A stretch of 38,869 nucleotides of DNA, taken from IMG/VR virus record IMGVR_UViG_3300010373_000088, positions 1-38,869 of that record; one strand, given 5' to 3'. Both the position numbers and the translations under genes were made by a program. Positions 5,458 to 10,677 of the stretch are shown here, one piece after another. Origin of the DNA: a virus. The notes beneath the pieces were generated by a model, which saw only the letters and a program-made list of their open reading frames with translations, searched no databases and was not told the origin of the DNA. Each line of letters starts with the position of its first letter. Within the stretch, counting starts at the first letter, position 1.

Positions 5458-5574
5458 ATGAACCTAATAAAAGCCATACTAATAGTAATGTTTACCCGGC
5501 GAAAGAAGATAACACCCCGCCGTGTTGACCCTAATAAAAGTAAATGGTGGATGAATAAAAAAACAACAGTATGA
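5458..5574 (+). CDS. Tiny basic protein (38 aa)
   Basis: Starts 1 nt after the previous stop and its TGA overlaps the ATG of the GHKL-like gene (ATGA at 5571). The product has a short hydrophobic N-terminus (LIKAILIVMF) followed by a strongly basic stretch (RRKKITPRR). It may only serve to couple translation into the next gene, or it may be a small membrane-anchored basic peptide. Support is its packing, not homology. Confidence 0.45.
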   Translation: MNLIKAILIVMFTRRKKITPRRVDPNKSKWWMNKKTTV

Positions 5575-6728
5575 ACTATTTGAAAATTACTAATCACGGA
5601 CTTATTTGCGTTGAGGATTTAACGCTAATCGGGTCAAGCACCAAAAGAGAGCAAACCGGCAAAATAGGTATGTTCGGTAGTGGCTGGAAGTACGCGCTTG
5701 CGTGGCTGTTACGTAACGGTTCGTCCCCGGTCATATTAAGCGGAAACGACAAGATAGAGGTTGATTTTACCGTTAAAATGCACCGCACAAATCCGGTGAA
5801 TATCATTACCATAAACGGGGCTGAAACGTCTTTAACAACCGAAATGGGGCCGAAATGGACAGGGTGGATGGCTGTTAGGGAAATCTTATCCAATGCCATA
5901 GACGAGGGTGGCCATACCATTACAACCGAGTGGTTACCGCAATTTAAAGGTATTGAAAACGAAACGGTGGTTTATATCCCAATGAACGGCGAACTATCAG
6001 AAGTGATGTTAAAATTCGATAGTTATTTTGCCTTCTACCGTAAAGAATCGTGGAAAAATGATAAGGTTAGACTATTCTTTAAAACCGAAGAAAGCAATCT
6101 TAATATCTATCGCAAGGGCATACGCTGCTTTGATACAACCAGCCGGACAAAGGTGGATTTTGATTTCAATGATATCTTCATAAGCGAGGATAGGTTAACG
6201 TCGGTCGGCTATATACAGATGGCTATACGCGATATTATTCGCGCCGGAATACCAACGTCAATATTTTTACGGTTGCTGCGTGAGGAAAACATGTCGTGGC
6301 TGCCCGAAACCACAAACGCTCCTATTATCGAAAGCTTAACCGAATTGGTAAACGAAGGGCATAAGTTTACTACGCCAACATTACAAAAGTTAGGTGGGAT
6401 GCTATTTTCCGCGCCCGATGCGTTGGTTATTCCCGCCGATTGGTACAAGAAATTACAGGACTTAGGATTAGTAAAATCTCCATTCGAAAATATCGGCGGC
6501 ATGGAGCCATTCATAAGAACGGGTGCAAAAAACGTTGAGGGCATATCCTATCATCTATCTTCCCTTAATATAAAATACCCCGTTATTTCCGGCAAATGCG
6601 AATCTGATGCTTTTGTAAACAACGGGACAATTTATGTGAAAGACGATACGATAATGGACGATAAATCTTTAGCTGCTGAAGCCCTATATAAAATGGGCAG
6701 GCACGATTTTATTTCACTTATGAATTAA
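5571..6728 (+). CDS. Putative circularly permuted GHKL/HATPase-type ATP-binding protein
   Basis: 385 aa. Motifs of the Bergerat ATP-binding fold (Hsp90, MutL, gyrase B, histidine kinase) are visible, but in changed order. Near the N-terminus, ITNHG (6-10) resembles the G1 box, GSSTK (21-25) the lid region and KIGMFGSGWKYAL (31-43) the G2 box GxxGxGxK. The N box follows downstream instead of coming first: REILSNAIDEGG, with Glu104, Asn108 and Asp111, like the ExxxNAxDxG motif of MutL. The order G1-lid-G2-N implies a circular permutation. The rest (about 150-385) is an unassigned alpha/beta region. It sits directly upstream of recT, so a role in DNA metabolism or counter-defence is possible. 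The motif reading is mine; function is unproved. Confidence 0.6.
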   Translation: MNYLKITNHGLICVEDLTLIGSSTKREQTGKIGMFGSGWKYALAWLLRNGSSPVILSGNDKIEVDFTVKMHRTNPVNIITINGAETSLTTEMGPKWTGWMAVREILSNAIDEGGHTITTEWLPQFKGIENETVVYIPMNGELSEVMLKFDSYFAFYRKESWKNDKVRLFFKTEESNLNIYRKGIRCFDTTSRTKVDFDFNDIFISEDRLTSVGYIQMAIRDIIRAGIPTSIFLRLLREENMSWLPETTNAPIIESLTELVNEGHKFTTPTLQKLGGMLFSAPDALVIPADWYKKLQDLGLVKSPFENIGGMEPFIRTGAKNVEGISYHLSSLNIKYPVISGKCESDAFVNNGTIYVKDDTIMDDKSLAAEALYKMGRHDFISLMN

Positions 6729-6970: not shown

Positions 6971-7747
6971 ATGGAAACTGGATTACAAACAATCAAAGAT
7001 TTTTCAGGAGAAGAAATCAATATTATAAAAAACACGGTTGCTAAAGGCGTTACCGATATCGAGCTTCAGTATTTTTTGATCCTCGCCAAATCTTTAGGGC
7101 TTAACCCGTTCAATAAAGAGATATGGTGCTATAAGGACAACAAGGGCAATGTATTAATCTTTACTGGCCGGGATGGTTTTTTAATCGCCGCTCAAAAACA
7201 ACCCGTATACGGTGGCTTGCGTTCAGGATATGTTTGCGCCAATGATAAAGTTTTTTCAATGGACATTCCTAACGGCAAAGTTGAACATAAGTTTGACAAT
7301 AAGGCACGAGGCGGCATTGTGGGGGCTTATGCTATTGCCTTTAGAAAAGGCTGTGAGCCGACCGTTGAATGGGCTGATTTTAATACCTACAACAAGGGGT
7401 ATAACGCATGGAAATCGCACCCTGGGGCCATGATCGTTAAGGTTGCGGAAGCAAACGCCTTGAAAAAAGCCTTTGGATTGGCCGGGGTTGAAAATGAGGA
7501 CGGGTACGACTTTAACAATGACACGTTCGCCGCGCCGATTGATATTGACCATGAGGAAGAACCGATTATAGCGCCTGAGGTAACTGATGAAGACTTGGAT
7601 CTCGAAGTTGAGGCGCTGATTACCGATGCTGATACGCTCGAAATGCTGGTGAGCATCTTTAACGAGTTCCCGGAAATGCACAACAATAAAAAGTTCATGG
7701 AAAAACTCACCAACCGCAAGGCTGAATTAAAAACCGTAATGGCTTAA
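6971..7747 (+). CDS. recT: RecT/Bet-family single-strand annealing protein
   Basis: 258 aa. It promotes annealing of complementary single strands during phage recombination and replication. The block LQYFLILAKSLGLNPFNKEI followed by LIFTGRDGFLIAA and the RKGCEPTVEWADFNTYN region are characteristic of the RecT superfamily, closest in style to lambda Red beta (Bet). Residues about 1-190 are the annealase core; the acidic C-terminus (about 185-258, rich in Glu/Asp) is a typical partner-binding tail. It is followed 2 nt later by a RecE-like nuclease and then an SSB-like protein, the classic recombination cassette. A bet name would be as defensible as recT. Confidence 0.92.
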   Translation: METGLQTIKDFSGEEINIIKNTVAKGVTDIELQYFLILAKSLGLNPFNKEIWCYKDNKGNVLIFTGRDGFLIAAQKQPVYGGLRSGYVCANDKVFSMDIPNGKVEHKFDNKARGGIVGAYAIAFRKGCEPTVEWADFNTYNKGYNAWKSHPGAMIVKVAEANALKKAFGLAGVENEDGYDFNNDTFAAPIDIDHEEEPIIAPEVTDEDLDLEVEALITDADTLEMLVSIFNEFPEMHNNKKFMEKLTNRKAELKTVMA

Positions 7748-7749
7748 TC

Positions 7750-8619
7750 ATGGAAGTTTTAGAGCAAGAAGAAGAAATTGTATTGGTTGACATTCCTAAC
7801 CGCAGCCAAAGGATCGATAGTCTTATCGCCCGGTTAATGTCACACGAAACGCATTTATCTTATAGCGCCCTTAAAGCGTTCAAGGATAGCCCGAACGACT
7901 TTATACAGTACAAGTTCCGGGAAAAGAAGCAAACGGACGCTATGGCCTTCGGTTCGCTTGTTCATTGCCTGATATTAGAACCACAGGAGTTTGAAAACAG
8001 GTACGCGATTTTAGAGGACTTTGATATCTGTTGTCAGATCGGCGGCGCAAAGCCTCGCGCAACCAAAGCCTATAAGGAATGGAAAGAAGTTTTCCTAATG
8101 GATATAGGTGACAAGATTGTAGTTAGTCAGGAAGATTACAGCACCGCGCTTTCCATATCAAATGGCGTAAAAAATAACCGGGCTTCGGCTAAAATATTAA
8201 ACCAGTTTACCTATAAGGAGCAGCCCATCGAATGGTATTACAAAAACTTTAAGTTCCTGGGCTTCATTGACGGCGGCAGCGAAAAAATCCTTTGTGATGT
8301 AAACACGTGCAAGGACGCTAATCCTAAAGCGTTTCAGCGCGAAATAATTAAGATGTGGTATTACGGACAGGCAGCCCTATATCTTACCGCAAAGCAAAGG
8401 AATATGCCGTACTACATTATAGCGGTTGACCGCAAAGGTGGTATATCCGTTCACCGCTTGCACAAGCATCTTATTGAGCAAGGGCTTCAGGAATACGGCC
8501 AACTTTTGGACCAGTTTAACCGCTGCATCCTGATAGACGGCTTCGATCAATCCTATGACTTCCATTGTGAGCTTACCGATGGTATTTACATTATGGACAA
8601 ACCAGCTTTTATGTATTAG
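7750..8619 (+). CDS. RecE-like PD-(D/E)XK exonuclease with a changed active site
   Basis: 289 aa. The N-terminal LSYSALKAFKDSPNDFIQYK, the AMAFGSLVHCLILEP block (His72) and the C-terminal QREIIKMWYYGQAALYLTA block are those of phage RecE/DUF3799-type nucleases that resect double-stranded ends for the annealase. In these the core is normally D...DxKT; here it reads FIDGGSEKILCDVNTCKDA, with Asp174 and Asp183 present but Asn185 where the catalytic Lys is expected. A Lys occurs three residues later (188). The enzyme may use that Lys, or may have lost catalysis. It directly follows recT and precedes an SSB-like gene. Confidence 0.85.
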   Translation: MEVLEQEEEIVLVDIPNRSQRIDSLIARLMSHETHLSYSALKAFKDSPNDFIQYKFREKKQTDAMAFGSLVHCLILEPQEFENRYAILEDFDICCQIGGAKPRATKAYKEWKEVFLMDIGDKIVVSQEDYSTALSISNGVKNNRASAKILNQFTYKEQPIEWYYKNFKFLGFIDGGSEKILCDVNTCKDANPKAFQREIIKMWYYGQAALYLTAKQRNMPYYIIAVDRKGGISVHRLHKHLIEQGLQEYGQLLDQFNRCILIDGFDQSYDFHCELTDGIYIMDKPAFMY

Positions 8620-10083: not shown

Positions 10084-10677
10084 ATGGAATTAAATAAAGC
10101 TCAAAAGATGGCGGTTGAAATTTGTATGCGGTTGCAGCCATTTACTGACAAAATAAATATAGCCGGTTCCATAAGGCGCAAAAAGCCGGAAGTAAAGGAT
10201 ATAGAAATTGTTTGCATGCCAAAACAAATTATCGTAGAGGACGAGGATTTATTCGGCACAAAGCGCGATAACAACCATATCGATGTCGGCTTTATTTCGA
10301 CCGTCGATAGTTTGGGTCGGATCGAAAAAGGTAAACCTACTGGACGTTATTGTAAAATTGTTTTAAGCGAAGGTATTAACCTGGATTTATTCTTACCCGA
10401 TCCCGATGATTATTACCGCCAATACGCGATAAGGACGGGAAGCGCCGATTATTCTTTTAAGGTAATAGCAACTGGCTGGCGTAAATTGGGTTGGGTTGGT
10501 TCTGATATAGGTTTAAGGCCTGAGAAAGATTGCATCGAAACCAAAGGCCCGGACGGTAAATCAAAATGGCAATGTGTACGAAATAAAAATAACACCCCGC
10601 CAATTTGGAAAAGTGAACAAGAATTTTTTGAATGGATTAAAGTACCTTTTTTAAAACCGGAACTAAGAAATATTTAA
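10084..10677 (+). CDS. DNA polymerase X-like nucleotidyltransferase
   Basis: 197 aa. Motifs of the Pol beta-type nucleotidyltransferase palm are visible: INIAGSIRRKKPEVKDIEIV, with Gly28-Ser29, Arg31-Arg32 and the metal-binding pair Asp39/Glu41; a third acidic residue, Asp101, in INLDLFLPD; and RTGSADYSFKV, matching the TGS block. In Pol X enzymes these catalyse gap-filling nucleotide addition. No HhH DNA-binding or PHP domain is present, so this is a compact palm-only form. It directly follows the RusA-like gene with no gap, pointing to a repair or recombination role; a different nucleotidyl acceptor cannot be excluded. Confidence 0.85.
   Translation: MELNKAQKMAVEICMRLQPFTDKINIAGSIRRKKPEVKDIEIVCMPKQIIVEDEDLFGTKRDNNHIDVGFISTVDSLGRIEKGKPTGRYCKIVLSEGINLDLFLPDPDDYYRQYAIRTGSADYSFKVIATGWRKLGWVGSDIGLRPEKDCIETKGPDGKSKWQCVRNKNNTPPIWKSEQEFFEWIKVPFLKPELRNI

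Follow-up and report, generated by a model that had tools for sequence, protein, structure and literature searches.

A phage gene family with a putative segment swap inside a GHKL ATPase-like domain

The DNA analyzed here (the window) comprises positions 1 to 38,869 of the IMG/VR virus record IMGVR_UViG_3300010373_000088, and our subject is an open reading frame (ORF) on its plus strand at 5571-6728, which was confirmed to be open from an ATG start and encodes 385 amino acids (aa). The predicted product resembles a GHKL-type ATPase whose parts stand in an unusual order. Few ATPase folds are as well studied as that of the GHKL proteins (gyrase, Hsp90, MutL, histidine kinases, and MORC), which a set of motifs in fixed order defines. 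The motif series of the window protein runs from an LKITNHG strand through the lid and G2 region (GSSTKREQTGKIGMFGSGWK), further strands, and a W-x2-W pair to REILSNAIDE and an S5-like YRKGIR...DFDF...EDR region; G2 reads G33-x-x-G36-x-G38-x-K40 and the N box R103-E104-x3-N108-x2-D111-E112. The original prediction had placed a G1-like motif and G2 at residues 6 to 40 and the N box after them, and both positions and order hold in this ORF. The features are given below with their basis in brackets; "sister" denotes phrog_6077, a related family of canonical order, HMM a profile hidden Markov model, and AF2 an AlphaFold2 model.

5571..6728, plus strand: segment-swapped GHKL (GHL-type) ATPase-like protein, phrog_8203 (385-aa ORF, profile match, homologue conservation, AF2)
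5574..5816, plus strand: segment B, residues 2-82, G1-like strand, lid, G2 loop and helix, and strands, corresponding to sister-profile residues ~44-129 (hhalign, AF2, sister HMM)
5586..5600, plus strand: G1-like ITNHG, residues 6-10, with Asn replacing the usual Asp (alignment)
5631..5690, plus strand: lid and G2, GSSTKREQTGKIGMFGSGWK, residues 21-40, MORC-like (alignment, PDB profile match)
5817..5933, plus strand: segment A, residues 83-121, strand, W-x2-W, N-box helix, and strand, corresponding to the sister N terminus, residues ~5-41 (hhalign, sister HMM)
5877..5906, plus strand: N box REILSNAIDE, residues 103-112, with E104, N108, and D111 invariant (homologue alignment)
5961..6275, plus strand: segment C, residues 131-235, last core strand, then an S5/transducer-like region (hhalign, AF2, VIA-align)
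6186..6194, plus strand: E206-D-R208, with E and R invariant and R208 the proposed arginine finger (alignment; role suggested by GHL proteins, PMC2292703)
6537..6725, plus strand: C-terminal alpha/beta tail, residues 323-385, equivalent of the tail that bears EExxH in most homologues, with the motif absent here (AF2, alignment)

Searched alone, the window protein matched only uncharacterized phage families in PHROG. The phrog_8203 profile covers residues 1-219 (E 4e-43), while the match to phrog_6077 (E 2e-16) is offset by about 42 residues, which was a first hint of a different arrangement. Neither the protein nor the full family profile found a match in Pfam, PDB sequences, or plasmids, and the window holds no further HATPase_c_3 match. 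Same-order relatives were recovered from seven close viral contigs, from Yuavirus and other phages, from 80 loci in viral contigs, and from 27 loci in bacterial genome assemblies that are probably prophages. Most homologues came from the viral contig scan, in which 80 loci were kept out of 340 candidate stretches; a scan of genome contigs with the single window protein returned nothing, and the alignment as query succeeded. The unverified record of Escherichia phage ERS-1 (PP337211.1; L015, 4902-5741) has a frameshift-ridden, Yuavirus-like copy of the swapped ATPase, which looks like contamination or poor assembly.

Conservation was assessed on 87 diverse homologues with identities down to ~18%. 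G21, K25, G33, G36, G38, G93, W96, R103, E104, N108, D111, E112, E206, and R208 are invariant in 87/87, the conservation of G2 being partly biased by the search pattern. The viral scan patterns described the G2 region only and left the N box out, so that N-box invariance in those sequences is independent of the search; for the bacterial-genome loci a second pattern took in the first residues of the N box. The original prediction had considered a chance resemblance less likely and had named Glu104, Asn108, Asp111, Gly33, Gly36, and Gly38 as the residues to be checked; all six are among the invariant positions. The N box lies downstream of G2 in all 109 extracted proteins, at a spacing of 72 residues in 88 of them and of 72 to 85 in all 109 (both motifs located). 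G1 is conserved in a degenerate form: position 8, the site of the G1 Asp, is Asn in 77/87 and Ser in 8/87, Gly10 is kept in 77/87, and the second Gly is missing, giving NxG instead of DxGxG. The G1-like strand stands before G2 as predicted, in a form that departs from the classical motif. In most homologues the space upstream is too short for a second in-frame N box, and none was found in the upstream part examined of the few homologues with long stop-free stretches there. A duplicated intermediate with an N box on both sides was not seen in these stretches.

The sister family (phrog_6077) includes Vequintavirinae and their relatives (phiTE_019, A73, KP13-16), Abidjanvirus Ab19 (gp34), and many Vibrio phages (1.158.O gp57). 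Its parts are those of the swapped family but follow the usual order, namely a strand, W, and RELxQNAID, then SRGG, then LLGxTTKxDDxxxIGKFGEGxK, and then the YDF...DRDR region. One member (L139) matches Pfam HATPase_c_3 (PF13589) collinearly at 27 bits against a cut-off of 25, and its depositors assigned IPR003594 to it, which together mark the sister family as ordinary GHKL in order. The two families share three homologous segments, the lid-G2 signature, the YDF...DR region, and a place among phage early genes; they differ in that the sister family has the order N box, G1, G2, Ser rather than Asn in G1 (11/11 at position 8), and another C-terminal part. Both forms occur in Mesyanzhinovviridae, in comparable early regions of two subfamilies, the swapped one in YuA gp29 (L010) and the canonical one in Ab19 gp34 (L017), and in both phages a related ORF precedes the gene by a few hundred bases. 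This pattern may reflect replacement or conversion inside one lineage.

Profile comparison between the two families provides the proof of REARRANGEMENT. In hhalign, swapped residues 4-62 (segment B) align with sister residues 46-104 at a probability of 97.9%, residues 85-115 (A) with 5-35 at 96.2%, and residues 125-223 (C) with 133-245 at 92.9%. The scores of B, A, and C are 76, 52, and 43, against a maximum of 19 to 22 over 100 column shuffles each, and the reversed profile gave no match. An HMM built from sister sequences only detected the G1-G2 segment in 87/87 swapped proteins and the N-box segment in 62/87, with A downstream of B every time and never upstream; reversed decoys yielded zero segment matches. 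On the window protein this HMM matches residues 2-89 (6e-14) and then 87-121 (3e-5). A separate genome-level search found swapped double matches in 8 records, and no full-length match to the sister profile in canonical order was present in the 35 records searched. As read from these alignments, the segment order A-B-C of the sister family is B-A-C here, a swap inside the domain that has left the last core strand and the S5 region unmoved. The prediction of a circularly permuted GHKL-type ATPase is therefore borne out as to rearrangement; permutation is an apt description only if the A-B portion is taken as the unit, and it does not extend to the whole domain. By sequence homology the family is thus a rearranged GHKL derivative rather than a canonical member. 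To our knowledge all other GHKL proteins have the canonical motif order, and the swapped order would for this reason be the derived state.

The AF2 model of the window protein has a mean predicted local distance difference test (pLDDT) score of 93.7 and a predicted template modeling score of 0.81, and its secondary structure agrees with the segment map. Segments B and A are joined by a tight hairpin of strands 74-81 and 84-89, and pLDDT is 96 to 98 across segment A and both junctions. The predicted fold is a Bergerat-type alpha/beta sandwich, and Foldseek and VIA-align match it to the ATPase regions of Hsp90/TRAP1, GyrB, topoisomerase (topo) II, and MORC2, which agrees with the Bergerat fold originally proposed. 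These matches are order-preserving alignments of a predicted model, with VIA-align Z scores of 6.2 to 7.1 against TRAP1, GyrB, MORC2, and topo II (for 3zkd, 170 residues at 3.7 Å). Residue 1 of the model aligns immediately ahead of the templates' G1 (GyrB 66-72, TRAP1 151-166, MORC2 61), as expected if their N-terminal N-box unit has no counterpart at that position. For the sister model (pLDDT 80.7) the alignments begin at the template N termini, with Z 9.2 to 10.3. Segment C aligned with the transducers of GyrB and topo II, and with R208 invariant this suggests an S5-type domain with a conserved basic residue after the GHKL part.

Three observations weigh against a rearranged and working GHKL site. 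The Z scores of the swapped model are below 8, the range in which the tool warns of chance arrangements, although the match list is filled by GHKL proteins despite these values. Among Pfam HATPase models none reaches its cut-off in swapped members, the best being HATPase_c at E 0.032 in 1/87. The Asp that reads adenine in G1 is Asn or Ser, so ATP specificity would not be assured. Against PDB sequences, the lid-G2 profile has MORC2 as its top match (E 0.028), and the N-box segment has no GHKL match. On balance we consider it very probable that the protein is a rearranged GHL fold, a GHKL domain with an S5/transducer-like domain, and that its nucleotide site works.

In the mechanism that we propose, the N-terminal strand-helix-strand unit carrying the N box would have moved to a position after the G1-G2 half and before the last core strand. 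Because the catalytic Bergerat parts are kept, binding of Mg-nucleotide, probably ATP, with the same geometry is most likely. Judged by conservation, E104 would be the general base and N108 the Mg2+ ligand, and K25 and the G2 loop would contact the phosphates; the finger may be the loop with R208 in the S5-like part, by analogy with GHL proteins and MORC (PMC2292703). The protein, probably a dimer, would alternate between an open state and one with the lid closed, and could act as a clamp or switch on DNA or a protein client early in infection; ATP as ligand, hydrolysis, dimerization, and the client are all points that we infer. MORC2 as the closest lid-G2 match favors the MORC/paraMORC side of GHL, and the Asn or Ser at the G1 Asp site of both families suggests that base recognition may differ. 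The favored function is probably that of an ATP-switched dimeric clamp in early phage DNA metabolism or host takeover; for a role as a clamp linked specifically to DNA, our confidence falls a little short of even.

Several alternatives bear on this proposal, two of which involve the C-terminal tail. In 63/87 homologues a beta hairpin is followed by a C-terminal domain with an EExxH...D-x-TR-x-FQ signature, which forms the last ~110 aa of L010, L031, L081, L113, and others and is absent from the window's clade of nine. The tail has no match in Pfam and may be a domain of metallopeptidase-like character that is fused to the ATPase. The family could be a factor of the RIIA or Hsp90 kind that targets host proteins or defense, coupled in most members to this EExxH domain. 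The record AN14 is annotated "hydrolase, metallopeptidase," RIIA-like proteins are among the next matches of a BFVD fold search (E 4e-5 to 1e-2, low TM score), and there is no constant partner gene of DNA metabolism. However, the motif is missing in the window's clade, MORC is the best lid-G2 match, and in several phages the gene lies among DNA replication or recombination genes, so that we hold this function to be a tenable but somewhat weaker candidate. A bolder variant holds the family to be the first natural example of a segment-swapped GHKL ATPase, one in which relocation of the N box removes the N-terminal dimer strap and alters nucleotide reading (Asn at G1), producing a different dimer switch that mostly gates a C-terminal EExxH hydrolase; we regard it as doubtful.

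It is also conceivable, though unlikely, that the fold is rearranged as described but belongs to a nucleotide-sensing pseudo-ATPase or a user of a nucleotide other than ATP, in which binding rather than hydrolysis throws the switch. The lost G1 Asp in both families and the missing second G1 Gly would fit such a protein, whereas the catalytic Glu, the Mg-binding Asn, the lid Lys, the G2 glycines, and E206/R208, all kept in 87/87, would be needless for one that only binds. GHL proteins are dimers with exchanged N-terminal straps, and the N box might likewise act in trans, segment A completing the site of the partner subunit by domain swap, in which case the rearranged fold would not have to close within a single chain. 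The confident monomer model through segment A and both junctions and the tight hairpin from B to A make this quite improbable. Chance likeness of short motifs in an unrelated protein would agree with the empty single-sequence Pfam and PDB searches and is refuted, to the point of being hardly credible, by the invariance in 87 homologues, the homology of three segments to a Pfam-recognized GHKL family, the null controls, and the predicted fold.

The genes around the ATPase-like ORF include an integrase, two helix-turn-helix repressor-like genes, and the following two recombination genes.

6971-7747, plus strand: RecT annealing protein (PF03837; family match)
7750-8619, plus strand: RecE/ExoVIII-like nuclease (DUF3799) after RecT (family match)

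The ORF had been described as lying beside recT; the two are close, with a 70-aa ORF between them. RecT is above cut-off in 4/50 related records and the DUF3799 exonuclease in 9/50, so that the link with RecT does not hold for the family at large. No partner gene is conserved across the family; the recurring neighbors are clusters confined to single lineages (Yuavirus relatives) and, here and there, exonucleases. Elsewhere in the window, the product of 10084-10677 (plus strand, 197 aa) contains a GSIRRKKPEVKDIEIV motif and scores 21.6 bits against DNA_pol_B_thumb, a weak match below the cut-off of 25; it is likely a phage pol-beta/X-type nucleotidyltransferase. The record of L029 (G002) holds a second weak GHKL-like match at 122095-122178, limited to the lid-G2 region of a 760-aa frame that may encode a RIIA-like protein of that phage.

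Among known systems, MORC/paraMORC GHKL-S5 ATPases share a GHKL domain and an S5-type domain with a basic finger, and MORC2 provides the best PDB sequence match to lid-G2; unlike the swapped family they have the canonical order, and the G1 Asp is present in MORC. Hsp90/TRAP1, gyrase B, topo II, and topo VI B resemble the window protein in predicted fold from G1 onward and in the arrangement of ATPase and transducer, whereas their N-box helix is N-terminal of G1. The members of phrog_8203, such as YuA gp29 and the "HATPase" of Pseudomonas phage Epa38, belong to the same family with the same swapped order; YuA gp29 differs in having the EExxH tail. Because some database records label members "HATPase" or "ATP-binding protein," the ATPase assignment is already in annotation.

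We know of no earlier account of a rearranged GHKL domain. A search of the open-access literature in PMC found no description of permuted GHKL, HATPase, or Bergerat proteins, in line with the original prediction, in which no similar described family was known. The account of MORC that gives the S5-domain motif as GhXhhpXXRhl makes no mention of permutation (PMC2292703), and the "circularly permuted" passages in PMC7824862 and PMC3710099 concern methylases and HEPN domains, respectively, not GHKL. The swapped motif order in this phage family thus seems not to have been described previously. Reordered motifs with nearly every part kept explain why curated Pfam models fail to detect the family. 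The arrangement offers a natural test of which fold connections the protein requires in order to fold, to close over ATP, and to couple its dimer, and the canonical-order sister family is well suited to a direct comparison. With family models that take the swap into account, hundreds of phage genes that are now called hypothetical would receive an annotation.
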